From the IMG/VR virus record IMGVR_UViG_3300030329_004297, positions 1 to 36,057 of that record: DNA of 36,057 nt; one strand, written 5' to 3'. The position numbers and the translations under genes are program-made. Positions within the stretch are counted from its first letter, which is position 1. The number at the start of each line of letters is the position of its first letter. The notes under the pieces were generated by a model. That model was not told the origin of the DNA. It saw only the letters and a list, made by a program, of their open reading frames with translations, and made no database searches. This document shows, piece after piece, positions 3,807 through 36,057 of the stretch. The stretch comes from a virus.

Positions 3807-4336
3807 TGGATATTAATAAACTTTATAGCGCAATTATGGCTGCAGAGCATCAAGGATTCTTGGGAAAAGAAGGCTATAACCCTTGGATTAGAACTAAAGC
3901 TACTGGAACTGGGTCTAGCGCTTTTGGCCCTGTTCAATTAACAGGTGGTAAAGGGTCTATGATGGCTAATGTTGCCGGTGGATATTCTGATGTAGGAGCT
4001 AGTCCTGAAGAGATAGAGTGGATAAAATCACGTTATCTACCACAAGCAAGTAATTTTCTTAAGTATGGTGGTGATGATATGCAAGAGGGTATGGAAAGGT
4101 TCGACTATGGTGGTACAGGAGATTTCACAGATAAAGACAAATCAATGTACGAAAGCGTTGCTAAAAAGATTATGCAATCAGAGTATGACAGAACTGGTGG
4201 TGCTAAAGATATAAATAAGTTTATACAGTCTTGGAGAGGTAAAAGCTACGAAGAAGACCCTGAATATTATGACTTTATAAAAGAGCAGACAATGATGAAT
4301 AATATATTGTCAGAACAGGGTTCAGAAGCTTTTTAA
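3806..4336 (+). CDS. Lysozyme-like peptidoglycan hydrolase, 176 aa
   Basis: The N-terminal part has the pattern of lytic enzymes with a lysozyme-like fold: an early helix with a candidate catalytic Glu (residue 14, in MAAEHQGF), then IRTKATGTGSSAFGPVQLT (about residues 28-46), which resembles the conserved Ser-x-x-GPxQ loop of phage transglycosylase or lysozyme domains. It would cut peptidoglycan glycan strands, either as the endolysin or as a virion-bound hydrolase aiding DNA entry. It has no signal peptide or transmembrane segment. At 176 residues it is normal for a single-domain endolysin. Which role applies cannot be told from sequence; no other hydrolase is visible in the window, favouring the endolysin. 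Confidence 0.65.
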   Translation: MDINKLYSAIMAAEHQGFLGKEGYNPWIRTKATGTGSSAFGPVQLTGGKGSMMANVAGGYSDVGASPEEIEWIKSRYLPQASNFLKYGGDDMQEGMERFDYGGTGDFTDKDKSMYESVAKKIMQSEYDRTGGAKDINKFIQSWRGKSYEEDPEYYDFIKEQTMMNNILSEQGSEAF

Positions 4337-5264: not shown

Positions 5265-5673
5265 GGTACGAAGAGTAATTAGGTCTTTCATAAAAGATAT
5301 TATTTCTAAGGAGAAAGCAGAGAAGCTTATTCCTGGTAAACAAGATTTTACTAATCCTATAATAAAGGATATCTTATTTAAATTGGGGAGAACAAATGTT
5401 AGCTCTCCTAGTTATGCTATAGTAGAGCAGGGAATCAATGGGCATGATTGGCATACTGATATAGGGACAGATGGACATATGCAATGGTGTAATACAGGCG
5501 TAAGTATTTTATTAAAGAAATCTAAAGGTGGTTTGTTTAAATATAAAGAGCCTGATAAAGAATATACTCAAGATGAGCACTATTTAAGTGCTATAGTACA
5601 TTCAAATGACCAATGGCACATGGTAGAGAAATCAACGAAAGGAAGAACAGTTCTTTTAATGTTTTTAACATAA
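5239..5673 (+). CDS. 2-oxoglutarate/Fe(II)-dependent oxygenase-like protein
   Basis: The frame is open from 5224 to the stop at 5671-5673. It carries the marks of the prolyl-4-hydroxylase type oxygenase fold: an N-terminal helix pattern (VIRSFIKDIISKEKAEKLI), an iron-binding HxD (HTD, about 5452-5460), a distal His (QWHMVEK) and the following KGRTVLLMF with the 2-oxoglutarate-binding Arg. Such enzymes hydroxylate proteins, nucleotides or small molecules; the substrate here is unknown. The start is unclear. The first canonical codon is TTG at 5383, but this would remove the N-terminal helix. ATT at 5239 after AAAGG is my tentative choice; ATT 5278 and CTG 5248 are alternatives. It lies directly between the terminase genes and overlaps the large terminase start by one base. 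Confidence 0.6.
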   Translation: MTDLVKGSKVRRVIRSFIKDIISKEKAEKLIPGKQDFTNPIIKDILFKLGRTNVSSPSYAIVEQGINGHDWHTDIGTDGHMQWCNTGVSILLKKSKGGLFKYKEPDKEYTQDEHYLSAIVHSNDQWHMVEKSTKGRTVLLMFLT

Positions 5674-10410: not shown

Positions 10411-11820
10411 ATGGCGAACACAACGTTTTACTCAGGTCAAGCTGGTAACGATGTTGCTTCTAGTGTTGATATTAACGATACTAGGCGAAAGTTTAATTTC
10501 GGCGACAGAGTAGCAGAGCTTGCACCAATGCAAAGTCCATTCTTCGTATATTTATCGAAGGTGGCAAAAAAAGCTACAAATGACCCTGTTTTTAAGTTCT
10601 TAGAACAGAGACATCAGTGGCAAAGACGTAATTTTGAAATAAAGACAGCGGATGTTTTAGCTGACGGCGGAGCAATTACAGCGAATGGTAGTGCAACTTT
10701 GGCAGCAGATGAAGATTTGCTACTAACTTGTAAATATGATTCATATGGAAGAATCTCTTCTGGAGATACATGTGACTTTATATTACCAGGAAATGTAATA
10801 GCATTAAAAGCTGATGATGGTGTTGTTTATAAGTTTAGAATTAAAGAAGATGCAGCTTTTACTTCTTCTACTTCTTCTTATAGTGCAACTTCTCCAGCAA
10901 CAGCTCAAGTACATCATGATACTGATAGTGCAATAACTACTATTAATGCTGAGGCTTGTATTCCTTTACAAGACATCCCAGTAGATACTTCAATGTCTGT
11001 TGGAAATAAAGGTCAAGTAATCGGTAGTGCATGGACTGAAGGAAGTGACTCTCCTCTTGGTTGGGAAGATAAATTGTATGACAGAGAAGGTTATACACAA
11101 ATCTTCAAAACTGGTATGAGCATTTTCTCTGGTACATCATTAGCTACTGAATATAGAGGTATTGGTAATGAGTTTCAAAGAATCTGGCAAGATAAACTAA
11201 TGGAACACAAGATGGACATAGAGCAAGCAATGTTATTTGGTGCAGGTACTACTTTAAATGACCAATCAACATCTGCTCCTGTTAGAACATCTTGGGGTAT
11301 TTTGACATATAGTGAATCTTATGGTAAGGTTTACAATATGTCTTATAGTTCATCTGGCTATGATGCTTTCTTAGATGCAATGGAAGATTTCTTTGCTCCT
11401 GAGTCTGGTAATAGTGGTAATAAACTAGTTCTAGCTTCTAGAAAAGTTATTACTTACTTGAACAAACTTGGAAGTGGAAGTTTCTTAAATAATTCTGTAG
11501 GTTCATCTCAATATCGATTAGATGTTAATACAGTTCCTGGTGCTTTTGGGCACACAGTAACAGTTGTTAACACTATATTTGGTAACCTTCATTTTGTTCA
11601 AGAGCCTTTATTAAGAGGTCCTTGGGAAGATTACTGTGTAGCGGTTGATTTGAAAAACTGTTCTTACAGACCACTTGTGGGTAATGGTGTGAGTCGAGAC
11701 ACCTTCATTGAAACTAATGTACAAGACAACGGTGTTGATGGTCGAACAGACCAAATCATCACAGAAGCTGGCTTGGAAATTCAGTTACCTGAAACTCACG
11801 CAATTCTTAAATTTTCTTAA
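10411..11820 (+). CDS. Major capsid protein, SU10-like, 469 aa
   Basis: The main shell protein, expected to adopt the HK97 fold. The N-terminus (TFYSGQAGNDVASSVDINDTRR..FNFGDRVAELAPMQSPFFVYLSKVA) matches the pattern I know from SU10/DUF5309-type capsid proteins of aquatic podovirus-like phages. The C-terminal region contains the typical late strand and loop sequence (VAVDLKNCSYRPLVGNG...DGRTDQIITEAGLEIQLPETHAIL). Length is normal for a capsid protein without a large inserted domain. It follows the scaffold and is followed by beta-rich virion proteins. No cleavage site or capsid protease gene is evident. Confidence 0.92.
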   Translation: MANTTFYSGQAGNDVASSVDINDTRRKFNFGDRVAELAPMQSPFFVYLSKVAKKATNDPVFKFLEQRHQWQRRNFEIKTADVLADGGAITANGSATLAADEDLLLTCKYDSYGRISSGDTCDFILPGNVIALKADDGVVYKFRIKEDAAFTSSTSSYSATSPATAQVHHDTDSAITTINAEACIPLQDIPVDTSMSVGNKGQVIGSAWTEGSDSPLGWEDKLYDREGYTQIFKTGMSIFSGTSLATEYRGIGNEFQRIWQDKLMEHKMDIEQAMLFGAGTTLNDQSTSAPVRTSWGILTYSESYGKVYNMSYSSSGYDAFLDAMEDFFAPESGNSGNKLVLASRKVITYLNKLGSGSFLNNSVGSSQYRLDVNTVPGAFGHTVTVVNTIFGNLHFVQEPLLRGPWEDYCVAVDLKNCSYRPLVGNGVSRDTFIETNVQDNGVDGRTDQIITEAGLEIQLPETHAILKFS

Positions 11821-19188: not shown

Positions 19189-19971
19189 ATGAGAAAAAAT
19201 AACAAGGGAGTAATAAAGAGAGCTATAATTACTCCAGATAAGCATGCACCTATACATGATAAAGCTGCTATAAAGGTTGTATGTAAAGCGATTGAACTAG
19301 TCAAACCTAATATATATGTAGACTTAGGTGACTTAGGAGAATGGGCTTCTGTTTCGCATTGGCAATGGAAACGCAAAAAGAAGCCACCTTTGGAATATAT
19401 AACACCAAGGGTAGAGGAAGATATAAAAGCAGTAAATGAGTTACTTGACATAATTGATGTCTCTTTAGATAAAGTTGGTTGTAAAGAGAAACATATTTGT
19501 GCAGGGAATCATGATGAGTGGTTAGATAGATTCGTAACAGAGCATCCATACTTAGACTATCGATTTGAAAAAGTATGTAAGTTCAAAGATAGAGGATACA
19601 AATACCATAAAGCAGGTGAGTATCTTAAAATAGGAAAGCTCTATTTTTATCATGGGCATCACTTTGGTGGACAATACCACGCAGCGAATCATCTTAAGAA
19701 ACTAGGTGCCAATATAATATATGGCCACCATCATTCCCTGCAACAAGATAGTGTGACTTTTATGGACGGCCCTAGGTCAGCCTGGTCACTCGGATGCTTA
19801 AAAGATATGAGTTCAGAAAAGAATGAATGGCTTGGAGGTAGACAACATAAATGGGCTCATGCATTTGCAATAGTAGATTACTACAAAGGTGGTAGATTTA
19901 CAGTAGACATAGTTCAAATAATAGATGGGAGAACGACAGTATGGGGAGAGCTACTAGACGGAAACAAATAA
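19189..19971 (+). CDS. Calcineurin-like metallophosphoesterase, 260 aa
   Basis: All signature blocks of the two-metal phosphoesterase fold are present in order: DKH (Asp 17, His 19), GDLGEW (about 47-52), GNHDEW (about 106-111), HGHHFGG (about 155-161) and GHHHS (about 179-183). These bind two divalent metals and hydrolyse phosphate esters, often in nucleic acids or nucleotides. Length is normal for a single-domain enzyme, without a signal peptide. It lies between the zinc-ribbon gene and the giant tail gene in the late unit, so it may act on nucleic acids or signalling nucleotides late in infection. The substrate is unknown. Confidence 0.85.
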   Translation: MRKNNKGVIKRAIITPDKHAPIHDKAAIKVVCKAIELVKPNIYVDLGDLGEWASVSHWQWKRKKKPPLEYITPRVEEDIKAVNELLDIIDVSLDKVGCKEKHICAGNHDEWLDRFVTEHPYLDYRFEKVCKFKDRGYKYHKAGEYLKIGKLYFYHGHHFGGQYHAANHLKKLGANIIYGHHHSLQQDSVTFMDGPRSAWSLGCLKDMSSEKNEWLGGRQHKWAHAFAIVDYYKGGRFTVDIVQIIDGRTTVWGELLDGNK

Positions 19972-20042
19972 TAATTCCTAATGATTATTGGGAGTCTTCT
20001 ACAGGACCTCTTGGTGTAAAATGGGTATATATAAATGCCTAA
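19941..20042 (+). CDS. Nested small ORF, 33 aa
   Basis: Reads MGRATRRKQIIIPNDYWESS and ends VKWVYINA. It overlaps the end of the phosphoesterase by 31 bases and the start of the giant gene by 8. A GGGAGA lies about 9 bases before the ATG. Compact packing and a sensible basic N-terminus suggest a real peptide, but it is short and could be incidental. Confidence 0.4.
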   Translation: MGRATRRKQIIIPNDYWESSTGPLGVKWVYINA

Positions 20043-23000
20043 AGAAGTACAAGAAATTCAAGACTTTAATCAAGGAACAGTAACTACACATTCAGAAAGA
20101 GATATAACCCCTGAAACTGCCGCTTATTCCCTTAATGTAGACCCTTTATCAGAAGATGGTAAGCTAGTAGGAGTTCCTGAAGACAGAATAGTTGCATCTT
20201 TATCTGAAAATGTTCCTTTTGAGCCTTTAAATTACGGACTTCAATGGGGAGCTGCTGCTATTAGAATAGCAGATTTAAGTAAAATACCAGAAGCTTCAAC
20301 AGATGGAGAAGGTAGTAGAGTAATATTTCAAGGAACAAGAGGTGTTTTTGAGATACTAAAATATACTTCATCATATTTTGATACCAGCCAAATAAAAGAT
20401 TCATTACTTAATATTGAAGGAGGTCTTGGAGATAGTACTGGAGAATTATCTAAAGATTCAACAGAGATTCACATTATTGATTGGCCTTATAAAAAATCAG
20501 GTCTTATTAATGTAGGTGATGTAATTGCTCTTAGTTCAGAGACTGATGTTGCCAATATTCCAAAGTCTATAGAGTGGATGCTTGTTACAGGAACTACTCA
20601 AACACTTAATATATTAGAGGTACAAAGAGGATATTATAATACAGAACCTGTTGAATATACTTCACTAGGGTCTAATACGAATATTTATAAATTAACAGGG
20701 CTATCAGGTTGGCTTAATGTCTCTGGATGGCAAACTAATTATAAAAATAATCATATAGGTCAAAATCCTTGTATTATATATGTTGCTAATGCTGGTGCTA
20801 GTTCTGCAGATAATTTAACACATGATGCCACCAATAAAACTATTACAATAACTCAAAATTCACTTGTCAATAATTTAGGGGCAAATGATGCTATAGAAGA
20901 TTTAGTTAAAAATAATGATGTTATAAAAATTATAAATGCTTCAGGTGGTGTAGCTACAGTAAAAGTAGATTATGTGACTGATGGAGTTATAAACTATTCA
21001 AGTATTAGTGGTAGCTTGTCTACACAAACATCAGGTAAATATTGGATAGATTGTAATAAAATAGCTAATGGTAACTTTAGAGCTTATGATACTAGTGCTG
21101 ATGGCAAAGCTCCATATGGATGGACTACTAGTATTAATCCTTCTGGAACTGCCACATATGATGATGTTTATGCTGATGATACTAAGAGTATAGGTTCTCC
21201 TCAATTAGCTACAACAGGTGGAATTACAGGACTCAAAGGCAATGAAAGAGATACTTCTAATAGTAACTATGATTCAACTGAGTCTCCATTCTTAATTTTG
21301 TCAAATGCTAGGGATGTTGCTTCTGCTGTAAATAGTATTACCTTAACTGATGCTTTAGATAAAGATGGCGCTAATACTAGATTTAGAGTTTCTAATCCAT
21401 CATTATTAACCGAAGGAGATACTTTAGTATTATCTCATGGAGTTGGAATTACATTAGTCAATACTAGTGGTAATGCTTATACAGGGACAGATAATAACCC
21501 TTATCTTCAGAATCATTATAATCCAGGATATGCATATGAAAGTATTAATGTTGCAAGTTTTACAGATAATGATGCAATTACTGTTACAGTCCCAACTTCT
21601 ATAGGTGGTACTGGAGTTGGACATATACTTAGATTAGAAGACACATCAAGTGCTTCTTTAACATCGACTGCAGCAAATGCCTATGTAAATATATCTAATG
21701 AAGATGCTGCTGGAGCTAATGCATCAGATGCACAATTAGCTTTAAATATAGTTGCTGCAATAACAGGATGTTCAGATACTGAAAGAGTTATATACGGAAC
21801 AGCTGCTGGTATTGGAGATGCTGAAAATGGAATAGCAGGGATTAGTGCTTCTGTTAATACAGAAACTAACACTAAAGTGGATATATGGCCTACTAATGGA
21901 TTAGCTGAAGAATATGTCAAAGTAACATCTATAGAAGTTAGTCAAGATGCTGGAGGTGATGCTCAACCTGGATTCATAACTGTACAGAGAGCTTATCATG
22001 GAAATCTTCAGGCGCATGCAGCTGGAGCTTCAATAAAAAGAATACTTAGAACTCAAATTAAACAAACTGTAGGAGCTTCTAATTTTGACGCTGTACAAGA
22101 AGGAAAAAGATATAAATTAACTTGGTGGGTAGCTGATATTACTAAAGCTTGGTTAGGTAATAATGATTACCATTTAAAGCCTAGATTGAACTTTAAAATA
22201 GGATGTGCTGGTGGCTATTTATTAGGAGAAGGAGATTGGAGTTCTGATAAAGGTATAGTAGGAGCAAATGGTGAAAAAGCTTGGTTAAATTCTACTAATT
22301 ATTCTACTGCTTTAGACAGTAATAAAAAGACATTAAAAGGTGATTTTGGTGGTAGTATTTACCATACCTTTGCTGGAAATAAAGATATATATAATAACAC
22401 TGCAACAGGATGGGTTAGAGGAAGTATAAGTGATACATATCAAGTAGGGACAGATAATTTTCCTCGTGTAGGAAATACCATGTCTTTCGTACAAGATTCT
22501 GGTACAACTCAAAATGGAAATTGGACATTAGGTGATACGACTGACGATAGTTTTGTTAATAGTGATAATTTCGATTTTTCTAATGGAGTAGCAAGTACTA
22601 GTCTTATCCATTTATCTGGAGCATTACACCCGAAATCTATATTTGGAATCCCAAATATGTTAGGCGAAAAAACTTATTTTGCTGGAGTGAGTGCAGGATT
22701 AGCAGGAGAAACTGTCCCAGCTTCTGATGGCAGCGCTCCTAAAAGAAGAGCTTATATAGAATTTGAAGATTTTGTAGGATGGAATTTATACGATAGAGAT
22801 ACTATATATGCTGTTGATATTTTTATATCTTCTGCTGATGGAAGATTTGCACGTTTTGTAATACCTACCCAAAAAAATCCTACTACTAATTTTGCAGATG
22901 GAAGGTATGTAGGTACACCTTATTATACCACAGTATCAAATGCTTCTGAAGGTTGGCTTAATAGCACCCAAGCTAAAGGGAGGATGTTTTATCTTGTCCC

Positions 23001-26000
23001 TACAGACGGTGGTGATATAGGATATTACCAAGATTTACCAACACAAATAGCTTCTGGAGGAACATGGGTAGGTGATGGTTCAGATAGTAAAGCTGGCTCT
23101 GTTTTAAATGATGGAACAGCTTGGGCTAATAGTTTAAAAGAATGTATAGAAACTGCTTTTAACAACTATCAAGGCGATGGAGTAACTAGATTTACAGTCA
23201 CACAAAATGGTGCTGCATTATGTATAGAAGATGCTATAGGAGGAGATATAGCTGATAATTGGACTGGAGAATATACTGATGCTGCGGGAACGTCTTATGT
23301 AAGGAATGAATTTATGCATTATAGTTACTATAATGTCGACCAATTCTCTACTGGTGGGAAAATGCACTTTACTATAAGAGTAAATACTAGAATGATAAAT
23401 AGTACAGGGTTTATGAATAGTTTTAAATGGGTTGATTCAGACTCTAGTAAAAACGGGCAAAGTCGTACAGATAATGGAACCACTGGTGACCACAAAGGAT
23501 ATCTTAAGGGTGATGGATTGGGTTTTAATTTAGGAAGTATAACATCTGGAGGAGGTTATGCTATTAGTTCTGATAGGGATGTTGTTACAGGATTTCTAAC
23601 ATGTTTTCATATTGGAGCTGACCCTACTGCAGCACAAGGAGTTACTAATTTAGATTTAGCTATAGAGCATGCAAATGGAATGAATGGACGTGTAACTGGT
23701 GCAGTTGCTAATACAGATGAATTAACCTTAACGTTAGTTGATGCAGAAACAGGAGGGCAGAGTCTTGATTTAACTAGAGTACCTGATAGATTAGAAACTA
23801 ATACATCTGAGAGTTTTTCTACACCAAGTTTAGTATCGCATCTTTTCGAATTTTATACTGGAGTCAACAATTCTGGAACAGGGTCAGGTAAAACTCTTAT
23901 TTGGCATAAATGTGAATTTGACTTCACACTACCAAAAGACAAAGATATATCTGAATTAGATGTATATTTTGAATCTGATGGTGAGGTATGGGGAACTAGA
24001 GATGGTTCAACAATAAATAGCGGAGTTGTAGATAAGTATTCATCTTTAATAGGCATAGATTCTATATCTTTAGTTGAAAATGTTGAGATATTACCTTCTA
24101 TAGAAACTGGAACAAATATTACTTCTTCTGCGAGTATAAAAGATTCTAATAATAAAGAATTGCTTTTATATCATGATAAAAATACTAGTTCTTTAAATGT
24201 ATTAGAAGATTTTGGTGACCCTTTAGATGGACATACCAATACATTTATGAGTGCTAATAATATACCTTATGAAGATGTTACATTAAATAAAGCACCTACT
24301 TTTACTAAAAATAATAGAGAGTTTCATATAGGAATGGGGCCTGATAATCCAGCAATATGGGCTGGGTTTTTAAATCATAAACAGTTTGGTACAGATTTTT
24401 CAAATCAATTTATAATAGATAAAAGTGAAGTTGAATCTTTTGATGCAGAGGGAGCTTATTCTATAGATAAATTATGTAGAGCTGGTTTTTGGTTATGCGA
24501 ACTTAATAATGGTGCATCATTTAGTTCTGATAGTACAAAATTAAATTTAAACATTCCTACATCAGAATTTACTGGTAGTGCAACAAATACTCAGGTTAAT
24601 ATTGAACTAGTAGGATTTGATAAACAACACGTAAAATCAGGTACACAAGCGACATTAGATACTAACACATATGAAGCGACATGTATGTATATGCATCCTT
24701 GGCATTATACTTACTCTAATAGTAGTGGTGGTACTGCTCATAAAAATATAAAACTTAGTGGAAGTCAGATATATGTAGATTCTATAAGTAATGATATAAC
24801 TACTGTAACTGGGAAATTTGCTTTCAAAGTGAGCCTCAATTATTCTTACGGAATAGCTCGTGGTACCAACTCTATATTTAGAATTAATGATGTTACTGGA
24901 GCAGTTGAAAAAGGAACTTTGCCTTTTAAAGCGCACAGTATCTGTCCTGCATATAGTCAATCTGAAAATGAAGTAGGAACTACTGGGTCAAGATTTTCAG
25001 GAGGAAGAGTTTGGATTCTTGATAAAGATGGAGGGCAAATACATAAAGTTAATGTAGCTAATGCTGCATGGGAGAATTTTACTGTAGATGTATCTATTAC
25101 TCCTAGATGGTGTACATGGTGGAGTAGTACTGATGCAGATGCAGCATCAAATGAAATTATTACAAAAGATAGACCTCCAACTGATGTAGGATATATGTCA
25201 GATATTGTTGAAACGTGGGGTCTCAAAGGAGATACCGGCTCTATATCTAATGATTCAGATACTAGATTATGGATTCAATTTTATCCAAAAACAGGAGATT
25301 CATTTGGTCCTTTAGATAATTTTATTTATTGTGGAAATACTGATAGTATATCAGGGCCTATAGCTAATGTTAATTTCTGTAATAGAACAATTCCATTAAA
25401 TCATACAGGAGGAGCGACACAAGACGAATTTGACCCAAATGCAAGATATGGGAAAACTTTATCACAACTTAAGGCTGAAAATGTTTCATCAGTTGGTAAT
25501 GCAAATGAAAACATTTCTCAAAGAGGTAGGTTGATTTCTAAAGTGAAATTAAAACCTATAGAAGGAGAATATACAAGATGGGCGTGGTTTAATCCTCAAT
25601 ATATAAATCATAAATGGGTAGCAAATTCATCAGCACAATATCCTACTGAAATACATTATAAAAGAGCAAATGGAAACTGGGATTATGATGACGTAACACA
25701 ACCTAATACATCTATAGGTCTTAGGAATTATGCTGAAAATATAGGATGGGATTCAGATGCTCCTTCATTTAAAATGATTAAATTTGGATTAATAGGATTA
25801 GGAGATAATGATTTTGATGGAGTAATAGATGGAACAGGATTACCAGTTTCTAGTGCGGCTAATGTAAATATAGGTTTTGAAAATGGAAAAGATTGTTCTA
25901 GTCATGCTGCAGCAGTATTAATGCAAACTGATGCAAAATGGATTTTAAATGGACAAGTAGCTTTTGGTCAGGGACAATCGGGTTTTTATGAAGGACAGGG

Positions 26001-29000
26001 TGATGGATATTCTGTTATGGGACTTCAACATTCAGGAGAGGGATTTACTGATAATCATTTTGGTAGAACTGCAGAATTATATAAACCTGATGCCTTTTTT
26101 ATGGTAACCTCTGATATATGGAAAATGGAAAAAGCTGATTCTAGTTCTAGCTATAATGATAATGCAAATGCAAATAGTAAAGGAGCGCATTTAATACCAA
26201 CGGAAAATAATAATCCAAAATTCAGTCATGCTTCTAAAGATACTGATTCTACGCATGATGGTTCAGGAGCTAGTGGACAGTTAGAGCATTGGTCTTCTAG
26301 TGACTGGACTGATTCAGATAGAAATCAATTTAAAGATAGAGTTCATGTATTTAGGACTGCAGATAAGCATCATTTGTCAATAGGTAATAATTTATTATTC
26401 GCTTCTCCCAACGAAGCAACTGGTCGTGGTAGTTTTATATTTGGACAAGAGAATTTCCATAATGCTACAGAATATGGTCATTTATGTCCTGTTGTAGGAA
26501 TTATTGATGATTATCATTTCTTAATGCAAGTTACTCATGGAGGAAATGGTAGGCAAGGACCTTATACTACAGTTGGTTTAGCTGGAGCAAGTGATTTTTT
26601 AGCGGCTGGTACTTTTGTAGATAATTTGACAGATGCATTATCAGGTGGTACTGTCACTCATAAAGGAACTGAAGTAGACTATTTAAATTGGAAAGTTGGA
26701 GGGTCTAATTTTGATGCAGCAAATTATATTAACCCTGATGGAGAATTATCTAGAAAAGATGGAGGTAGATATACTTTAGATGACACTTATATAGAAGGTA
26801 GTGGAGTAAAATTCTTTTCCGATGGTAATATGATTGGAACTTATTTATATGATGGGACAAATAATGATGCAAGCTATGGTAAGCCTCAAGGAGTTAGTGT
26901 TTTTCCAACAAGCTTATTAAGTTTTTGTCATGGAAGAATGATACGTCCGTTAGGAGATACAGATGTTTCAGGAGTATCTAATTTTAATATAGATAATAGT
27001 ATATCTTTATATATGGCTAGTTCTCCAGATAGACCTGTAGGATTACACGATTATAACGAAGGAGCTACATGTAATGCAGAACCAAGTAGTCATCTTTGTC
27101 ATACTAAATTATATATGACACAAATATCTGGTACTGGAACTCTTATGTATTCTTTTGATTGGGATAATATAATGCCTGATACTAATAGAGCTACTTATGA
27201 AGGAGTTGATTATTCAAATGAAGTAAGTTCTAAACTACGTTCAACTCACAGGCCGTTTGGAACATATGAATTAGGAGATAGAACATCCCGTTATCGTAGA
27301 GACACTACTTTGATGAGATTTTATAATATGCATGCTAATGATGACACACATTTATCAGCAAAAGGAAGATTTATATTAAATGGTTCACGTAATGCTCAAA
27401 GTGATAATGCTGGAAATGATGGAGACCAAGTAGGAAGTGGAGGTACACTTGCACAGAATTTCATGATACCAGGTGGTTTTATGATTAAAACTGGAGCTAG
27501 TCATTGGGATGACACTCAATTTCAGGCTCAAACAGAAGACTATGAATGGTTTGCTGCTGGACATGCAGGCATAATACTTGGTGGAGATAGACATAGTTTA
27601 ATTTGGAACGCTAATAATGGAAAGTTACATGAAGATGGTTCTCTTTTTTCTCCTTATGGAGAATATCATTCTCCTTTCTTAAGAAAAGGAGGCTTAAATG
27701 ATTTTATTGCAATTTGGTCTCATAACTCTCCAATAAGGGAAATTGGAAATAGTAATAACTCCTATCTCAACTTTGATGAAGTAGGATATAATACTACAAT
27801 ACCTGGTTTTTCAACTCAATGGTGTAGAGGAATAGGTAGAAGTGTTGCTAGAAAAATAATCAGTTCTTATGCAACATGTGGAGGGTATGATGACCAAGCG
27901 AGCATAACTGATGACAGCGGTACTTTAGTTTCTAAAGGTGGATGGCAAACACAGACTATATTACCATCTGGTAGTTCTACTGTACGTTCAGACTTTACAG
28001 ATTATGGCTTTGATGGAAACAATATGTTATTATGCAATGATAGTATAGAGAATAAAATGACTTTTGATGTAGTTAGAGGAGAAATATTCCTAAGAACTCA
28101 TTATCCTTTGCCAGGTACTCCTGGAGCAGTAGCTGGTGACTCTGTTACCTTTATACAATCAAGAGATGCTGCATTAGCGCCTGTTAGGTTAGATTTAGAA
28201 TTATTACCTGCTTATACAGGATATTATGGACCAGGCACTAAAGCACCTGTTAAGGTTACAGGTGTAGGGAACCAAATAAAGATAGTTTTAGGAAAACCTT
28301 GTAGAGGAGATGATGAGGGAGATTGGCAACCTTATGGACAAAATCCAGGTCTCAGAGGAGAAAATGAAACTGATAATGAACATAATCTTAAATATATTTA
28401 CGACCCCTTTGATAATAATAATAAAGTAAGAATATCAGGAACTGCTAGTTATAATGGTGATTATATATGTGGTGATGATGCTTCTTATGGAAGATTTGCG
28501 GGAGTCTATGAAGGAAATTCATCTGGACAGGAAATGGGTTTTATAGAACCCTTGGGGGGCTCAGAAATGTCTAATCCTGCTTTTATAGAAGGTTCACAAG
28601 GATTAAGTATTTCTGGAAGGAATTATGCTACGCATAATATAAATGGTATTTCAGGTAGAATTAATTTAAGTAGACATGCTAGTAATTTTTATACTCTATT
28701 TATGGGAGCATCTAAAGCTGGGAAATTTAAAACAGGACGGATTCAGAGGAGTTTGTCAGTATCATCAGGAAATAAATATAAATATAATCAATATAATGGT
28801 AGTTTTCCTGATGGAGATGTAGATAAGTCTCATAGTTTTTTACCTCATTCAAGTGAAAATCATTGGAATTTTACCAACAATCCTAATTATTTAATGCAAA
28901 ATGAAGATGCTCACTTATGGGAGGCTGATGTAACATTTCTTATAGAACCAGCATCAGCTGCAAATGCAGGAGATGCACATTTCGTAAGTACTATAGATTA

Positions 29001-30396
29001 TTTTTACAAAGTATCTCTTGTCTATGATGGATATCAAGAAGGCCCTTTAAGTGAAACATCTTGGGGTATTACTAATATAAATGGAACTAATACTTATGAA
29101 AAGTTTAATGTTACTTTATCAGTTAATAATCCTAATAAAAGACTTACTTCAATTTGTTTATATAGAAAAAATGGTACAAATAATTTATATAGACTTGTTT
29201 CTGAAGTATCTACAAATAATGCTTTATGGGAGGTGTCAGGAAATGAGTATAAAATTACAATACTTGATGATGGAGGACTTGGAGCTACTTTTGAATCTAG
29301 AGCAGGTTTTTCAGAAGTACTAACTAATCCTTTTGTCAAATATGGAATAGGTACTTCTATTGCAGGTTATCATTTTGTGACAGACTGTTCTCATCCTCAA
29401 ATAGAAGATGCATCTCACATGATATTTAGGTCATTACCAGGTCAATTTGATTTATTTAATTGGGCTAATGATTTTATGGCTTTACCTACAAAAGCAACTG
29501 CTTTAGCTAATTTTGCTGGAAGACTATATGCTTTCGATGAAATTAATACATACAGGATAAATCCTGAAACTTTAGTAATAGAAGATACATTCCATGGTTC
29601 TGGATGTTTAAATGAAAGAAGCTTAATAGTTACTGATTTTGGTATGTTTTATTGTGATAGGAATAATGCTTATATGCATGATGGACAATCTCCTAGAATA
29701 ATATCTCAGTCTATTAAAAAAGGAGGTGGTTCTGATATAAGTAATTTTAATATTTCTGATTTTAGCTGGGAAAAGACTGTAGGGGCAAAGGATTCTATGA
29801 AACCTTTCATATCATTTGACAATAAAAGAAATGCTGTTTTATTCTTTGTTGAGAAACCAGGAGATGAATTAGTTAATCATTCAAGATATTATTGCTGGGC
29901 TTATTCTATATTATTATCAAGATGGGATTTATGGGAAGTTTCTACAGGAGATAATGGTTCAGGAGTATTTGACTCAAGTAAAGTTGTAGCTCCAAGTAGT
30001 ATTATTTCTACTTTAGATGGCAAGAGTTTTATGACTATGGGAGATTATTTAATAAACTTCTTAGGAGGTACTAATAAAAAACCTTGGCAATTTCTAAGTA
30101 AGAAATTAACTGTAGGTACGCATAGTCAAAAGAAAGTTTGGAAAAACATACAATTAATAGGAAATGATGATGATGTTACAACCTCTGTTGGAGACCCTAA
30201 AGGGAGTATTTCAATAGCTATAGATGATACTGTTATAGGAAGCTCTGATAGAACATTTACTAAAGATACTCCTGATGGTAAAGTAACCATTAAAGGAACT
30301 TCAAAAACTGGCAGATATTTACAATTCTTACTTACAGAGATGACTGAATCTGTTGATGCTATAGGAATAGTATTTAGAAGAAAAGGAATTAAATAA
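20035..30396 (+). CDS. Giant tail protein, nozzle-like ends with very large insertion, 3453 aa
   Basis: The N-terminus (IQDFNQGTVTT...DITPETAAYSLNVDPLSEDGKLVGVP, residues about 7-47) and the C-terminal 450 residues (for example ALANFAGRLYAFDEINTYRI, then FYCDRNNAYMHDGQSPRIIS, ending in DAIGIVFRRKGIK) look like the beta-propeller of podoviral tail-nozzle proteins (T7 gp12 type). Between them are roughly 2900 residues of beta-rich modules with Asn, Gly, Ser and Asp turns, Trp-rich carbohydrate-binding-like segments (RYKLTWWVAD), and an FN3-like segment just before the C-terminal part (about residue 2980). A normal nozzle has about 500-800 residues. Likely the tail nozzle or a tail hub bearing an enormous receptor-binding insertion. 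Membrane segments and catalytic motifs are not visible. It follows the metallophosphoesterase and overlaps the next gene by one base. Confidence 0.75.
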   Translation: MPKEVQEIQDFNQGTVTTHSERDITPETAAYSLNVDPLSEDGKLVGVPEDRIVASLSENVPFEPLNYGLQWGAAAIRIADLSKIPEASTDGEGSRVIFQGTRGVFEILKYTSSYFDTSQIKDSLLNIEGGLGDSTGELSKDSTEIHIIDWPYKKSGLINVGDVIALSSETDVANIPKSIEWMLVTGTTQTLNILEVQRGYYNTEPVEYTSLGSNTNIYKLTGLSGWLNVSGWQTNYKNNHIGQNPCIIYVANAGASSADNLTHDATNKTITITQNSLVNNLGANDAIEDLVKNNDVIKIINASGGVATVKVDYVTDGVINYSSISGSLSTQTSGKYWIDCNKIANGNFRAYDTSADGKAPYGWTTSINPSGTATYDDVYADDTKSIGSPQLATTGGITGLKGNERDTSNSNYDSTESPFLILSNARDVASAVNSITLTDALDKDGANTRFRVSNPSLLTEGDTLVLSHGVGITLVNTSGNAYTGTDNNPYLQNHYNPGYAYESINVASFTDNDAITVTVPTSIGGTGVGHILRLEDTSSASLTSTAANAYVNISNEDAAGANASDAQLALNIVAAITGCSDTERVIYGTAAGIGDAENGIAGISASVNTETNTKVDIWPTNGLAEEYVKVTSIEVSQDAGGDAQPGFITVQRAYHGNLQAHAAGASIKRILRTQIKQTVGASNFDAVQEGKRYKLTWWVADITKAWLGNNDYHLKPRLNFKIGCAGGYLLGEGDWSSDKGIVGANGEKAWLNSTNYSTALDSNKKTLKGDFGGSIYHTFAGNKDIYNNTATGWVRGSISDTYQVGTDNFPRVGNTMSFVQDSGTTQNGNWTLGDTTDDSFVNSDNFDFSNGVASTSLIHLSGALHPKSIFGIPNMLGEKTYFAGVSAGLAGETVPASDGSAPKRRAYIEFEDFVGWNLYDRDTIYAVDIFISSADGRFARFVIPTQKNPTTNFADGRYVGTPYYTTVSNASEGWLNSTQAKGRMFYLVPTDGGDIGYYQDLPTQIASGGTWVGDGSDSKAGSVLNDGTAWANSLKECIETAFNNYQGDGVTRFTVTQNGAALCIEDAIGGDIADNWTGEYTDAAGTSYVRNEFMHYSYYNVDQFSTGGKMHFTIRVNTRMINSTGFMNSFKWVDSDSSKNGQSRTDNGTTGDHKGYLKGDGLGFNLGSITSGGGYAISSDRDVVTGFLTCFHIGADPTAAQGVTNLDLAIEHANGMNGRVTGAVANTDELTLTLVDAETGGQSLDLTRVPDRLETNTSESFSTPSLVSHLFEFYTGVNNSGTGSGKTLIWHKCEFDFTLPKDKDISELDVYFESDGEVWGTRDGSTINSGVVDKYSSLIGIDSISLVENVEILPSIETGTNITSSASIKDSNNKELLLYHDKNTSSLNVLEDFGDPLDGHTNTFMSANNIPYEDVTLNKAPTFTKNNREFHIGMGPDNPAIWAGFLNHKQFGTDFSNQFIIDKSEVESFDAEGAYSIDKLCRAGFWLCELNNGASFSSDSTKLNLNIPTSEFTGSATNTQVNIELVGFDKQHVKSGTQATLDTNTYEATCMYMHPWHYTYSNSSGGTAHKNIKLSGSQIYVDSISNDITTVTGKFAFKVSLNYSYGIARGTNSIFRINDVTGAVEKGTLPFKAHSICPAYSQSENEVGTTGSRFSGGRVWILDKDGGQIHKVNVANAAWENFTVDVSITPRWCTWWSSTDADAASNEIITKDRPPTDVGYMSDIVETWGLKGDTGSISNDSDTRLWIQFYPKTGDSFGPLDNFIYCGNTDSISGPIANVNFCNRTIPLNHTGGATQDEFDPNARYGKTLSQLKAENVSSVGNANENISQRGRLISKVKLKPIEGEYTRWAWFNPQYINHKWVANSSAQYPTEIHYKRANGNWDYDDVTQPNTSIGLRNYAENIGWDSDAPSFKMIKFGLIGLGDNDFDGVIDGTGLPVSSAANVNIGFENGKDCSSHAAAVLMQTDAKWILNGQVAFGQGQSGFYEGQGDGYSVMGLQHSGEGFTDNHFGRTAELYKPDAFFMVTSDIWKMEKADSSSSYNDNANANSKGAHLIPTENNNPKFSHASKDTDSTHDGSGASGQLEHWSSSDWTDSDRNQFKDRVHVFRTADKHHLSIGNNLLFASPNEATGRGSFIFGQENFHNATEYGHLCPVVGIIDDYHFLMQVTHGGNGRQGPYTTVGLAGASDFLAAGTFVDNLTDALSGGTVTHKGTEVDYLNWKVGGSNFDAANYINPDGELSRKDGGRYTLDDTYIEGSGVKFFSDGNMIGTYLYDGTNNDASYGKPQGVSVFPTSLLSFCHGRMIRPLGDTDVSGVSNFNIDNSISLYMASSPDRPVGLHDYNEGATCNAEPSSHLCHTKLYMTQISGTGTLMYSFDWDNIMPDTNRATYEGVDYSNEVSSKLRSTHRPFGTYELGDRTSRYRRDTTLMRFYNMHANDDTHLSAKGRFILNGSRNAQSDNAGNDGDQVGSGGTLAQNFMIPGGFMIKTGASHWDDTQFQAQTEDYEWFAAGHAGIILGGDRHSLIWNANNGKLHEDGSLFSPYGEYHSPFLRKGGLNDFIAIWSHNSPIREIGNSNNSYLNFDEVGYNTTIPGFSTQWCRGIGRSVARKIISSYATCGGYDDQASITDDSGTLVSKGGWQTQTILPSGSSTVRSDFTDYGFDGNNMLLCNDSIENKMTFDVVRGEIFLRTHYPLPGTPGAVAGDSVTFIQSRDAALAPVRLDLELLPAYTGYYGPGTKAPVKVTGVGNQIKIVLGKPCRGDDEGDWQPYGQNPGLRGENETDNEHNLKYIYDPFDNNNKVRISGTASYNGDYICGDDASYGRFAGVYEGNSSGQEMGFIEPLGGSEMSNPAFIEGSQGLSISGRNYATHNINGISGRINLSRHASNFYTLFMGASKAGKFKTGRIQRSLSVSSGNKYKYNQYNGSFPDGDVDKSHSFLPHSSENHWNFTNNPNYLMQNEDAHLWEADVTFLIEPASAANAGDAHFVSTIDYFYKVSLVYDGYQEGPLSETSWGITNINGTNTYEKFNVTLSVNNPNKRLTSICLYRKNGTNNLYRLVSEVSTNNALWEVSGNEYKITILDDGGLGATFESRAGFSEVLTNPFVKYGIGTSIAGYHFVTDCSHPQIEDASHMIFRSLPGQFDLFNWANDFMALPTKATALANFAGRLYAFDEINTYRINPETLVIEDTFHGSGCLNERSLIVTDFGMFYCDRNNAYMHDGQSPRIISQSIKKGGGSDISNFNISDFSWEKTVGAKDSMKPFISFDNKRNAVLFFVEKPGDELVNHSRYYCWAYSILLSRWDLWEVSTGDNGSGVFDSSKVVAPSSIISTLDGKSFMTMGDYLINFLGGTNKKPWQFLSKKLTVGTHSQKKVWKNIQLIGNDDDVTTSVGDPKGSISIAIDDTVIGSSDRTFTKDTPDGKVTIKGTSKTGRYLQFLLTEMTESVDAIGIVFRRKGIK

Positions 30397-31319: not shown

Positions 31320-31895
31320 ATGTCAAATTGGGCTAACAGCCAAGAATATTTAAATCAGTTGAATCAAGGTGAGAAATTTGGAAAATTCGTTAATCCTCAG
31401 CAGATTCAACAAATTATGCAACCTACTCAAAATATGATAGGTCAGCAAACTGGCATAGCCAATCAATTAATGGACCCTGAATCTGCTATGAATGTTCGTA
31501 TGAATATGCAAATGAGAGACCTTATGCAACAAAGAGCAGCAGAAGCTGGTCAGCAACAAATGAGTAGTATGCAAAGAATGGCTGCTCAAGGCGGCATAGG
31601 TTCTGGTCAAGCTATGATGAATGCTAGAATGGCTATGAATCAGGCTATGGGAGGTGTTAATCAACAAGCCGCAGCTCAACAAATAGCAGCTGAACAAGCT
31701 CGATTTGGACAAGGATTAGGGGCTTTCCAAAATATGGCACAAATGCAACAATCATTAGGGCAACAATATTCTAATGCTTATCTGCAAAGAATAGCTCAAA
31801 ATAGACTTGTTAGAAAAAAAGCAAAAAAGAAAAAATGGTATCAGAAATTATTAGGACATGTAGGTAGTAATATAATGAAAGGACTGGGTGTATAA
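31320..31895 (+). CDS. Gln/Met-rich internal virion protein candidate, 191 aa
   Basis: GGAG lies 7 bases before the ATG. The protein is composed largely of Gln, Met and Ala in long helices (QQIQQIMQPTQNM, AMMNARMAMNQAMGGVN) and ends with a cluster of lysines and an amphipathic tail (RKKAKKKKWYQKLLGHVG). Its length and helical nature resemble T7 gp14 (196 residues), the smallest of the three ejected core proteins, and it is followed by progressively larger proteins as in T7. No homology is claimed. It probably belongs to the internal or ejected proteins. Confidence 0.68.
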   Translation: MSNWANSQEYLNQLNQGEKFGKFVNPQQIQQIMQPTQNMIGQQTGIANQLMDPESAMNVRMNMQMRDLMQQRAAEAGQQQMSSMQRMAAQGGIGSGQAMMNARMAMNQAMGGVNQQAAAQQIAAEQARFGQGLGAFQNMAQMQQSLGQQYSNAYLQRIAQNRLVRKKAKKKKWYQKLLGHVGSNIMKGLGV

Positions 31896-33188
31896 ATGGC
31901 TGAACCTTACGGATTATTTGCTCCAACTCAAGAAGATATAGAAGCTACACAGTATAATCAAGCTCAAGATGTAATAACAGGAGCTATTGGTAGTACTATC
32001 GGTGGTATTATTGGACAACTACCTCAGATGAGGAAAAGTAGAAAAGTTAATCAATACTGGCGAGATAAAGATATGGCTATTAATTCTCCTATAACTGTAG
32101 GTGAAGATGGTAGTTTAAATCTTGACCCTATAAGTAAAGACAATATGAATTTTGGGTCTTTATCAGAGGAATGGAATAATTATAAAAACTATCTAGAGTC
32201 TAATAGAATTAGAGTTACAGATGAAGATTATGTTACATTTAGAGAAATCTATGAAGGTAAATCAACAGAATATGGTAATACTTTAGCTAATAAGTTTTCT
32301 TCTATGAAAATGAGAGGGGTTTCAGATTCTAGCATTAGAGATTTAGTATCTACTAATAGAGGACTTTATGATACTATGTCAAGAATTGGAATGGTATCTC
32401 CTGAAGCAGATGCGCAATTTGCTCCTTACTTAAAAGCTAAAGGAGGTCTTTGGGGTGGTTTGAAAAAAGCCGTTCCTGAGGCAGCAATAACGGCTGCTTC
32501 TTTTGCTGCTCCTGTTCTTGGATACCAGGCTGGAAAAACTGGCTATCAAAAACTTACAGGTGCTAAAAAGCAACCAGGTTTTTTTAAAAATTTAAAAAGT
32601 GCTTTTGATTTGGGCACTGGAAGAAGATTTAAAGAAGAAGCGATTAAATCTGATGCTTTAAGAAAAAAAGTGCCGTGGACTACTAAAGATACAAAGCTGA
32701 TTAATCAAAAAAAAGCAGCTCTTAAAAGAGCTCAAACAAAAGTAGACAAGTTACAAACTAAAGCTGGAAAGCTTAGAAAAGGCAAATCTCAAAAAGCTTT
32801 AACTAAAGCACAAACAAATCTTAAAAAAGCAACTACCATTCTTGATACAGCTAAAGGAAAAACAAAACCAATGTCTAAAAGTAGAATTACTAGTACTTTA
32901 ACAAATGCTCTTAGGAAAAAAGGAGTAAGAGGAGTATATAAGGAATTAGTTGAAAGAGTAGGTAGAAGAGCTGCACTTGGTTTAATGGCTAGAGTTGGTT
33001 TAGGTACTGCTGCTTCTTTCACTGGAATAGGTACTGCATTTGGAGTAGGTATGAATGTTTTAGCTGCATACCAAATAGCTAGAGCTTTAGCAGGTGCTTT
33101 AAAAGAAGTAGAAGGAGATTCAACTTTCTCAGAAAAAATGTTTGGTAAAAAATCAGGCTCATCAACATTAAAAGGTTCTCAATTCTAG
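31896..33188 (+). CDS. Internal/ejection protein candidate, 430 aa
   Basis: Starts directly after the previous stop. A glycine-rich hydrophobic segment near the N-terminus (ITGAIGSTIGGIIGQL) and several alanine/glycine helices (AAITAASFAAPVLGYQAG, and LGTAASFTGIGTAFGVGMNVLAA near the C-terminus) suggest membrane interaction. Between them lies a long lysine-rich coiled coil (LINQKKAALKRAQTKVDKL, about 275-330). Amphipathic, membrane-active stretches with coiled coil are typical of proteins that podoviruses inject to build a channel. Second of the three-gene ejection-type set. Confidence 0.65.
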   Translation: MAEPYGLFAPTQEDIEATQYNQAQDVITGAIGSTIGGIIGQLPQMRKSRKVNQYWRDKDMAINSPITVGEDGSLNLDPISKDNMNFGSLSEEWNNYKNYLESNRIRVTDEDYVTFREIYEGKSTEYGNTLANKFSSMKMRGVSDSSIRDLVSTNRGLYDTMSRIGMVSPEADAQFAPYLKAKGGLWGGLKKAVPEAAITAASFAAPVLGYQAGKTGYQKLTGAKKQPGFFKNLKSAFDLGTGRRFKEEAIKSDALRKKVPWTTKDTKLINQKKAALKRAQTKVDKLQTKAGKLRKGKSQKALTKAQTNLKKATTILDTAKGKTKPMSKSRITSTLTNALRKKGVRGVYKELVERVGRRAALGLMARVGLGTAASFTGIGTAFGVGMNVLAAYQIARALAGALKEVEGDSTFSEKMFGKKSGSSTLKGSQF

Positions 33189-33189
33189 T

Positions 33190-36057
33190 GTGGCAGTCGA
33201 AAATCAAACACAATTTCAACCTCGAATAAGCGCAGAACAAACTCGTAATTTAATATCTGCGTACCAAGAATACCCTAAAAGATATCAACATGTTATAGAT
33301 GACTTAAGGCAACATGCGTCTTATCATAATGTTCCTTTCTATGAAGGTGACTTTTCTATCATAGATGCTGTTAAACAAGCAGGAGGGGGCTTTTTAGAAG
33401 GTTTTACTACTTTAAAGGTAGTAGACCCTCCTGACAACGAATATGAAGCAATAGCACGTAATATAGGCCATTTAGCAGGTTTTGCACCTGGTATGCTAGC
33501 TGGACCAGCAAAAGCTCTTAAGCTTACTGGTATGGCTAAAGCAGCAGGATTTTTAGCTGACAAATCTGTACCTATGGCAGTTGCAAAGTTTGCTACTAAT
33601 AAAGCTAGAGGATTAGCAGGAGGTTTAATTAAAGCTAGTCAAGGCAGCAGATTTTCTGCTATGAATACTGCTAGTAAGTTTTTACTTGGCAATAGGGCTA
33701 AACATATAGCAGAAGGAGCATTTCATTTAGGTGTTGCTAGTTCTGTGTCTTCTATATGGGAAGGTGTAGATACTATGCTTGAAAGTTTCTTTGGAGGAGC
33801 TATAGCTGGTGGTGTATTTAGAGGTATAGGTAATATAATACCTGGAGACAAAGGAGCTGATAAATTTGTAAGAGGATTAGCTGGTTCTTTGTTTATGGGA
33901 ATACCTGCTAGTCAAAGAGGAGCTACTACTCCAGAACAAGTATATGAATATTTAATGGGTGCTTACTTTGGTAGTAAAGAAATGCCATGGTATAGAGCTA
34001 GTGCAGGTAAATTCCTATCAAAAATGGAAGAACAAGCTAGAAAAGACCCTAAGATAGCAGTAGAAAGAAATCCAGCTGATATGGAAGGATTCTCTGAGTT
34101 GCCTGAGATAGTACAAAAGCATGTTAAAAAACAAGCTGAAGATATATATGGTAAGTGGGGAGAAAATGCAGGTAGAGCTCATGAATTAATGAAAGAGCTT
34201 GGTATATTAGAACAAATACCAGCTGATGCTCCTATGGAAATGGGCTATCCTATTTTACAAAAAGTTGTTGAAGGTGTTAGAGGTCAATCTGGTGCTAAAC
34301 CTAGTGAAATACTAGACTTTGGCGTTAGTGGAGGTACTAAAGGAGCTTCTGCTACATGGGCTACATATTTAAAAAGAGCTGGAGTACCTACAGTTCATTA
34401 TGTTTCACAAGGACAAAGTGGAAGATTAGCTAAAGATAGAACTGCTGGCGTTCCTAGAGAAATGTCAAAGAAAGAACTTTTAAATAACTTAGAAGAAGTA
34501 GATAGAGCAGCTTCTAACCTTAATAAACAAACTCCATCTGATGACTATACTTTAGATTTACAACTTAGAAATGCTGAAATAGTGAAGAAATCATCTAAGA
34601 TATATGCAGTAGGCAATATAATGTCTCCTACTTCGGGTAACAAACATACCAAAAAGAATCCTCAATTACATGGAAGAGCAGTAGAAGGTGGAACTGGATG
34701 GGGAATCCAAATGGCTATTAATGCAAGAAAGCCTATATTTGTCTTTGACCAACCTAGTAAGAAATGGTTTGCATTTGACTATGGAGTTAAAGGTGGTGGA
34801 AGATTTAGAGTTATGGAAGGCATTCCTGATTTAGTTAAAAGGCCTGGATTAATAGGCTCTAGAAAGCTTACTAAAGCTGGTAGTAAAGCTATTAAAGATG
34901 TTGTAATGAAAAAGTTTCCAGAAGCCTATAAAGGAGAAAAACCTGACGAATCTCAGAAAGGTATTAATGTAAAGATATTAGATAAGCATCCTGAGGTTAT
35001 TAAAGAAACTGTAGAATTAGCAGAAAAACAAAGGCAATTAACTAGAAATATAAATGAACTTGAAAATGCTATAAAAGATAAAGAATTAGATAAGAAAAGT
35101 ATTGCTAAAGCTAAAAAGGAAATAAAAGCTAATAAAGCAGAATTTAAAAAGAATGAAAAGAGAATATTTAAATTAAATAAACTCTCCCCTACTCAACATT
35201 TTGACATTGAAGGCAATATAGTTGATGAATCTGCTCCTTCTGTAGATACAGGGATGGCTAATACTAATACAGGGAATAAAGCAGAATTTTTTGTTAGAAG
35301 ATTTATGAGAGACTTATATAAAGGAGATGAACTTCCTCAAACACAAAACGCTAGAATAACTAATGTCTCTAAACAAATACATCAATTATTTACAAAGCAT
35401 TTTGATAAAAACTTTAAAATAAATAATTCAGAAGAGTTTGCTGCTGATATACAAAAGATATGGCCTAGAGATTTATCTAGAGAGGCTAAAGGTTATTTAA
35501 GAGCTTGGTTAAGGTCAGCTAATAATGGCAAATCTAATACTTATTTAATGGTATCTGATAAAAGAGTAAGACTAAGCAATCCTAATAATCCTAGAACTTA
35601 TGCTGGTAAAAGAAAGAAAGTACAAAGAGCTCCTTCTGTACTAGAGCTATTTTATGAGGCTAATAGACCTAAAAATGATATAGGTGAGCCTATTGTTTTA
35701 TTTGACGAAATAACAGTTAAGAATAAAAGAGGAAGTAATATAGATGTTCCTTTATATAAACTTAAAAAGCATTGGGCTAATGAAAAAATAGGTCCTAAAA
35801 ATCTACGTAGAGGAGAAAAGAAAGCAGAAACTAAGTTTAGGGCTTTGCAATCAAAGATTATAAATTATATGTTTAAAAACCATAATATGATTCCTTTAGG
35901 TGGGGTAGGAGATAAAGCTAGAATGATGTTTGTTAAAGTTCATCCTAATGCTAATTTAAAACCTGCTAAAATTAAAGCTGAAGTTGCTACTATTAGAAAC
36001 GAAATTAATAAGTTTAAATATAAAGACAAAAATGGTAAGATTAAAAAGCTAGATAGT
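33190..36057 (+). CDS. Large polyvalent-type virion protein with SLOG domain, partial (956+ aa)
   Basis: Runs in frame off the right edge without a stop. Start is GTG at 33190 (MAVENQTQFQPRISAEQ); an in-frame TAA at 33169-33171 allows no earlier one. Residues 1-370 hold Ala/Gly-rich, probably membrane-active segments (GGAIAGGVFRGIGNIIPG, about 205). Residues about 372-530 read as a cpYpsA-type SLOG domain: SGGTKGASATWATYLKRAGVP (start about 380), RNAEIVKKSSKIYAVGN, GGTGWGIQMAINARKPIFVFD (500-520). SLOG domains bind nucleotide-derived ligands. A strong coiled coil follows (about 595-660), then a mixed basic domain to the edge. As the third of the ejection-type set it matches T7 gp16 in position, so it may be delivered with the DNA. 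Confidence 0.75.
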   Translation, partial: MAVENQTQFQPRISAEQTRNLISAYQEYPKRYQHVIDDLRQHASYHNVPFYEGDFSIIDAVKQAGGGFLEGFTTLKVVDPPDNEYEAIARNIGHLAGFAPGMLAGPAKALKLTGMAKAAGFLADKSVPMAVAKFATNKARGLAGGLIKASQGSRFSAMNTASKFLLGNRAKHIAEGAFHLGVASSVSSIWEGVDTMLESFFGGAIAGGVFRGIGNIIPGDKGADKFVRGLAGSLFMGIPASQRGATTPEQVYEYLMGAYFGSKEMPWYRASAGKFLSKMEEQARKDPKIAVERNPADMEGFSELPEIVQKHVKKQAEDIYGKWGENAGRAHELMKELGILEQIPADAPMEMGYPILQKVVEGVRGQSGAKPSEILDFGVSGGTKGASATWATYLKRAGVPTVHYVSQGQSGRLAKDRTAGVPREMSKKELLNNLEEVDRAASNLNKQTPSDDYTLDLQLRNAEIVKKSSKIYAVGNIMSPTSGNKHTKKNPQLHGRAVEGGTGWGIQMAINARKPIFVFDQPSKKWFAFDYGVKGGGRFRVMEGIPDLVKRPGLIGSRKLTKAGSKAIKDVVMKKFPEAYKGEKPDESQKGINVKILDKHPEVIKETVELAEKQRQLTRNINELENAIKDKELDKKSIAKAKKEIKANKAEFKKNEKRIFKLNKLSPTQHFDIEGNIVDESAPSVDTGMANTNTGNKAEFFVRRFMRDLYKGDELPQTQNARITNVSKQIHQLFTKHFDKNFKINNSEEFAADIQKIWPRDLSREAKGYLRAWLRSANNGKSNTYLMVSDKRVRLSNPNNPRTYAGKRKKVQRAPSVLELFYEANRPKNDIGEPIVLFDEITVKNKRGSNIDVPLYKLKKHWANEKIGPKNLRRGEKKAETKFRALQSKIINYMFKNHNMIPLGGVGDKARMMFVKVHPNANLKPAKIKAEVATIRNEINKFKYKDKNGKIKKLDS

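Follow-up and report, generated by a model that had tools for sequence, protein, structure and literature searches.

The open reading frame (ORF) that runs off the end of the window (an IMG/VR virus record, analysed over its whole length of 36,057 bases) very likely encodes, judging from predicted structures, the front part of a giant single-polypeptide two-barrel RNA polymerase, and residues ~365–577 of its product are predicted with high confidence to fold as a cpYpsA-like SLOG domain. The explanation that we consider best, and to which we would give about an even chance, is that a giant virion-type polymerase bearing this domain is injected into the cell and that the SLOG pocket binds a nucleotide-derived molecule. 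The ORF and its parts are as follows:

33190–36057, + strand: ORF of 956 aa in the window, with a GTG start and running off the contig end; very likely the N-terminal portion of a giant RNA polymerase chain of the virion type.
33190–34281, + strand: N-terminal region, residues 1–364 (conservation profile and regional identities).
34282–34920, + strand: predicted cpYpsA-like SLOG domain, residues ~365–577 (AlphaFold2 model, 3imk match and tblastn).
34327–34350, + strand: SGGTKGAS, residues 380–387, first SLOG glycine loop, in frame.
34567–34614, + strand: RNAEIVKKSSKIYAVG, residues 460–475, SLOG helix and strand, in frame.
34687–34749, + strand: GGTGWGIQMAINARKPIFVFD, residues 500–520, second SLOG glycine loop and the next strand, in frame.
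34921–36057, + strand: region linking the SLOG domain to the polymerase core (alignment with the relatives L002 and L003).

The sequence blocks quoted in an earlier note on this DNA, SGGTKGAS among them, are real and lie in frame within the 956-aa ORF, and the cpYpsA-type SLOG fold that the note proposed was recovered by structure prediction. Built from an alignment of 17 family members, the AlphaFold2 model of the domain (mean pLDDT 88.4, pTM 0.85) has a Rossmann-type SLOG fold, and the cpYpsA-type structure 3imk is its single outstanding match in the PDB (Foldseek E = 7.6 × 10−4; VIA Z = 13.3 over 146 of 158 residues, model residues 15–227; Z = 5.2 for the next match). A 46-residue fragment of 3imk itself scans as Pfam cpYpsA (E = 1.2 × 10−18). 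The fold comparison alone set 3imk apart from other PDB matches: in HMMER searches of the PDB, the SLOG alignment matched mostly dehydrogenases at E values of 0.1 to 2, with 3imk at 0.68, and the whole ORF gave no usable HMMER match in either Pfam or the PDB. A cysteine synthase match of the ORF (E = 0.024) falls outside the SLOG domain and was taken as chance. The matched fold includes the final strand (GLIGSR...) and helix, so that the domain, correctly located in the earlier note, runs beyond the end given there, to ~residue 577 (34920). A chance match to the motifs is ruled out by the fold result; the motif pattern in order was also found in 0 of 20,000 residue shuffles, a weak control because the pattern was drawn up with the sequence already known.

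The glycine loops, the R(N) and the terminal Asp all occur in order in the window, and the corresponding positions are conserved in the family (G382 in 15/15 sequences, G385 in 14/15, R460 in 15/17, G500 in 15/17 and D520 in 16/17). The acidic residue of the GAD motif is missing: most relatives have GGxxGAD, whereas the window phage has GGTKGAS, with Ser in place of Asp at residue 387 (Asp in 9 of the 15 family sequences covering the position). Pfam cpYpsA (PF12694) gave no match to the window ORF, and the best family member scored 13.7 bits vs. a cut-off of 26.2. Thus, the new domain shares with the cpYpsA family (PF12694, 3imk) the fold, the permuted order of elements and the GG-G and GGTG loops, but, being below the Pfam cut-off and having the GAD Asp replaced in the window, it is labelled only "cpYpsA-like"; it also differs in being embedded in a giant polymerase.

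In searches of phage records by tblastn, residues ~374–606 matched phage SLOG or DprA-like proteins (best E = 10−15), and PHROG 768, named "DprA-like", matched the window ORF at E = 0.015 and its 90%-identical relative at E = 4.6 × 10−7. The naming of these phage relatives lends something to an alternative that we consider unlikely, namely, that the SLOG domain is a DprA-like module for handling single-stranded DNA that aids the incoming polymerase with its DNA or promoter and thus serves transcription, not counter-defence. The charge of the domain fits such a role, in that its net charge is more positive than that of the complete ORF in all 8 of the other members compared and in Klebsiella phage Pylas (3.4–9.9 vs. 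1.8–2.9 per 100 residues in the family), and in the window as well (+6.8 vs. +5.5 per 100 residues). The virion RNA polymerase (vRNAP) of N4 uses single-stranded hairpin promoters, and single-stranded DNA handling would explain why SLOG domains joined unrelated virion polymerases. However, the one fold match that stands out is to cpYpsA rather than DprA; DprA chains, as well as those of ThsA, are absent among the fold-search matches listed, which excludes neither; family members that lack the SLOG domain keep the polymerase motifs; and names such as "DprA-like" are transferred annotations.

The polymerase core lies past the contig end, which is why the earlier note missed the identity of the protein. 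In L002 and L003, which are 90% identical to the window ORF in the best segment, the same frame extends to at least 1,789–1,818 aa and contains GGADLDGDE, detected there without using the motif; the core occupies residues ~1065–1675 of L002, with DxDGD at 1524. A 610-aa model of the L002 core (AlphaFold pLDDT 78.5) has the two-barrel fold. Foldseek ranked the virion polymerase of crAss phage phi14:2 first (6vr4, E = 1.8 × 10−8), followed by QDE-1 and RDR2, and VIA gave Z = 18.4 over 328 residues for QDE-1 (2j7n), Z = 12.6 and 12.5 for the P23-45-type non-virion polymerases 8f72 and 8f5m, Z = 12.2 for 6vr4 and Z = 10.6 for P23-45 gp96.

A scan with GGADLDGDE returned 67 stretches, of which about 60 belong to a single family, and 47 remained after the removal of near-copies. 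The motif, carrying the catalytic DxDxD, is present throughout the family, and RVPxDSxSGA is a further motif that speaks for a polymerase; the invariance of DxDGD is partly by construction since the motif served as bait, which does not apply to the KQxG and RxPxDxxSG positions or to the lysines that are invariant. More than 40 distinct contigs carry a protein of this family (L012, L020, L072, L052 and L047 among them), and the recurrence of the same architecture in many contigs rules out an assembly artefact. Complete or near-complete ORFs measure ~3,050–3,270 aa (3,186 aa in L012, 3,251 aa in L020 and 3,108 aa in L072). The case for a polymerase rests on fold and motif layout because comparisons of the core with known two-barrel enzymes by HMMER and HHalign were not significant; against crAss polymerases, HHalign aligned only the catalytic region, RVPMDSASGA...GGADLDGDE with RIPNQGQSSN...TGSDFDIDK (probability 4%). 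Known two-barrel families likewise show no similarity to each other outside the DxDxD region (PMC10770324). The core was recognised by no Pfam or PHROGs model, the polymerase region had no tblastn match in 50,697 phage records, and a core scan of 84,980 species genomes found no relative, so that no host is assigned. These proteins of ~3,050–3,270 aa apparently constitute an undescribed family of virion RNA polymerases. With the virion polymerase of phi14:2 they share the single-polypeptide two-barrel core, the RxP...G-D-x-D layout and the place after tail and ejection genes, but there is no usable sequence similarity, no SLOG domain was seen in the phi14:2 polymerase (gp66), the remainder of the chain differs and the lineage is a different one. 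P23-45 gp96 is likewise a giant virion protein that contains a two-barrel polymerase (PMC10770324), but it is a siphovirus tape measure protein, with no SLOG domain reported.

The + strand of the window forms a tailed-phage structural block, as read from ORF calls and PHROGs matches:

5613–7175, + strand: terminase (PHROG 38).
7192–9402, + strand: portal (PHROG 156).
10411–11820, + strand: major capsid protein (PHROG 1328).
20035–30396, + strand: 3,453-aa tail-type ORF, with a match in neither Pfam nor PHROGs.
31320–31895, + strand: 191-aa ORF, putatively of an ejection cluster by position only, kept in L002 (193 aa).
31896–33188, + strand: 430-aa ORF, an ejection-type candidate by position only, with a counterpart of 421 aa at the corresponding position of L002.

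Three ORFs lie between the 3,453-aa ORF and the SLOG-bearing ORF at 33190, the 430-aa ORF being immediately 5′ of the latter, and this structural gene order is common to the relatives. The polymerase gene closes the block or comes very near its end (one further + strand ORF follows it in L010), and the genes past it are on the opposite strand and include ORFs that, by their sequence, resemble primase-helicase and HNH genes. The nearest kinds of polymerase, those of crAss phi14:2, N4 and P23-45 gp96, are virion-borne, and the record of phi14:2 annotates gp66 as detected by mass spectrometry. The placement of the gene has parallels in both crAss-like and N4-like phages. Taken together, the two-barrel polymerase identity of the full-length relatives, the position of the gene at the close of the structural block and the virion-borne nature of the nearest polymerases make it likelier that the protein is ejected, as the earlier note had supposed: the giant protein is probably packaged in the virion and injected with the phage DNA. 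The N-terminal region (residues 1–364), which is Gly/Ala-rich and hydrophobic, carries a conserved EYLxGAYFG motif and is the best conserved part apart from the polymerase core and the C-terminus, may have a role in ejection. Its first 45 residues (33190–33324) are 56–58% identical to those of L002 and L003 and the following 255 residues 94% identical, suggestive of a fast-changing N-terminus.

As in polyvalent proteins, very large size is combined with several unrelated effector-type domains (SLOG and RNA polymerase, with DUF7831 in L073 and L031); injection with the genome, which also defines that class, would follow from the gene order and the kind of polymerase. SLOG domains were said in the earlier note to have been described in large polyvalent phage proteins, but we found no such report in the open-access literature.

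The best listed identities of the window's terminase to those of cultured phages are below 30%, which places this lineage far from cultured phages. Within the structural block, the ORF at 19189–19971 (GDLGEW...GNHDEW...GHHH) resembles a calcineurin-type metallophosphatase in sequence; such genes are present in crAss phi14:2, too. Positions 1624–2010 are a non-coding gap that separates divergent gene blocks, and here TAGCTATAGCTATT occurs at 1828 and 1899 (+ strand) and 1826 (− strand), with 0.06 occurrences expected. It is a candidate regulatory element; when checked as a promoter candidate, this 14-mer repeat was shared with no fetched locus.

Sequence comparison across the family indicates that the SLOG domain is an accessory cassette that most members keep intact, that has eroded in one clade and that is missing at two or more well-supported points of the tree. 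The cassette measures ~190–250 aa and lies at residues ~370–620 in most members covering the region; 6 covered members are without it, and the distance from GAYFG to DxDGD is 1013–1085 aa in members without SLOG vs. 1132–1343 aa in those with it. In a tree of 41 cores, the members that lack SLOG fall in three places (L072/L048, L043/L073/L067 and L023): the first two groups each lie inside a well-supported clade that includes SLOG-bearing sisters, whereas the placement of L023 is unsure. Most pocket motifs have been lost in a single well-supported clade (L026/L042/L047/L049/L052). An inserted DUF7831 domain directly follows the catalytic barrel in L073 (E = 1.7 × 10−29, residues 1402–1508), which is without SLOG, and in L031 (E = 1.1 × 10−29), which has it. 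L048, also without SLOG, has a DUF4326-like piece after the catalytic barrel (E = 0.019, below the Pfam cut-off) that forms the last ~35 residues and is cut by the contig end; DUF4326 and SLOG are predicted to operate in shared ADP-ribose networks (PMC9503650).

The erosion in one clade, the absence of the domain elsewhere and the change of GAD to GAS in the window could indicate that, in this phage, SLOG has no ligand and is left as a relic in decay or as a structural spacer, a possibility that we regard as rather improbable. Intact members indeed share on average 33% identity in SLOG, below the 45% of the core and the 57% of the N-terminal region. Among close relatives, however, the domain is 90% identical, near the 93–94% of the rest of the protein; most members retain the GG, R, GGTGW and terminal Asp positions; and repeated acquisition by unrelated polymerases is not expected of a spacer.

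Such acquisition is suggested by SLOG domains in other giant phage proteins. The vRNAP of Klebsiella phage Pylas (3,819 aa) has SLOG, its motifs retained, at ~985–1160 and N4-type domains from ~1600, and that of Alteromonas phage vB_AemP_PT15-A5, also of the N4 type, has it at residues ~1098–1259; as in the new family, SLOG is N-terminal of the polymerase in a giant virion-type polypeptide, but the polymerase is of the N4/T7-like single-subunit kind, with a different fold. The giant crAss proteins cr113_1, cr130_1 and cr272_1 combine, in one polypeptide, SLOG with a gp66-like two-barrel polymerase region (GSDFDID), and differ from the new family in that SLOG is C-terminal and the chains measure 4,300–6,400 aa (in cr113_1, GSDFDID at 3222 and SLOG at 4072 of 4329 aa; in cr130_1, ~4198 and ~5008 in the stretch read). 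In the SLOG tree, cr130_1 and cr272_1 fall in one group with standalone phage proteins (support 100/99), apart from cr113_1, so that at least two acquisitions in crAss are likely; for the new family, one or two origins appear to be needed. These comparisons suggest that unrelated virion RNA polymerases recruited SLOG more than once. Polymerases are not its sole partner, given that BFVD has SLOG-like models also in a protein named helicase and in unnamed large proteins; we accordingly make no claim that SLOG fusions are confined to virion polymerases.

Viral SLOGs are typically standalone (PMC9503650); those that we examined measure ~180–245 aa, with 304 aa in Phosso, and such DprA-like/SLOG proteins (of Cr30, Atu_ph07, RaK2 and others) have the same domain but are separate small proteins without a polymerase. 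In Caulobacter phage Cr30, the standalone SLOG/DprA-like gene (L006, 3007–3549) comes directly after T4 gp47-type recombination endonuclease genes, a placement that argues for some phage SLOGs, at least, acting on DNA. Both viral SLOGs and virion two-barrel polymerases have been described before, whereas we found no account of their fusion in the text of the open-access literature. As a related precedent, a NAD-dependent ART domain is known in the vRNAP of the N4-like Roseovarius Plymouth podovirus 1 (PMC5512222).

The covalent joining of SLOG to the polymerase in all fusion cases could also mean that the domain is an allosteric sensor whose reading of a host nucleotide (NAD, ADP-ribose or AMP) would turn the injected polymerase on or off. 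A sensor role is established for SLOG domains, e.g. in ThsA (PMC11204291, PMC7272460), and SLOG-gated phage enzymes have been proposed (PMC9503650). Nevertheless, we judge this quite unlikely: SLOG is N-terminal of the core in the new family and the N4-type enzymes but C-terminal in crAss, the polymerases differ in fold, the linker between SLOG and the core is the least conserved part of the protein (24.5% mean identity in the family comparison), and SLOG has been lost in several lineages.

That SLOG has been gained and lost on different chassis fits a passenger function better than a catalytic role. Under the explanation that we prefer, the polymerase and its SLOG passenger would enter the cell together with the DNA; the polymerase would begin early transcription on entry, and the SLOG pocket would bind, and perhaps cleave, a nucleotide-derived molecule, most likely a NAD/ADP-ribose-type immune signal of the host. 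A first anti-defence dose would thus be delivered before any phage gene is expressed. Virion-delivered handling of such a signal is our leading reading of the SLOG role, held at somewhat less than even confidence; it draws on the superfamily (PMC9503650), on the other domains of the predicted network and on the gain and loss on polymerase chassis. Points that weigh against this reading are the Ser that replaces the GAD Asp in the window, the loss of most pocket motifs in one clade, the position of the polymerase core outside the window and the variety of SLOG ligands. Members of the superfamily bind diverse molecules, including DNA. More tentative is the broader proposition that SLOG has been taken up on repeated occasions by injected polymerases with unrelated folds, as an anti-defence device that arrives with the virion and neutralises a NAD-derived alarm signal ahead of the first phage transcript.

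Virion RNA polymerases are among the earliest phage enzymes active in the cell. If the proposed function is correct, phages would meet nucleotide-signalling immunity at time zero, not after early gene expression, when sponges such as Tad1 and Tad2 would act. Given the repeated fusion of SLOG to unrelated polymerases, cultured phages, Klebsiella phage Pylas and Alteromonas phage vB_AemP_PT15-A5, may serve as models.
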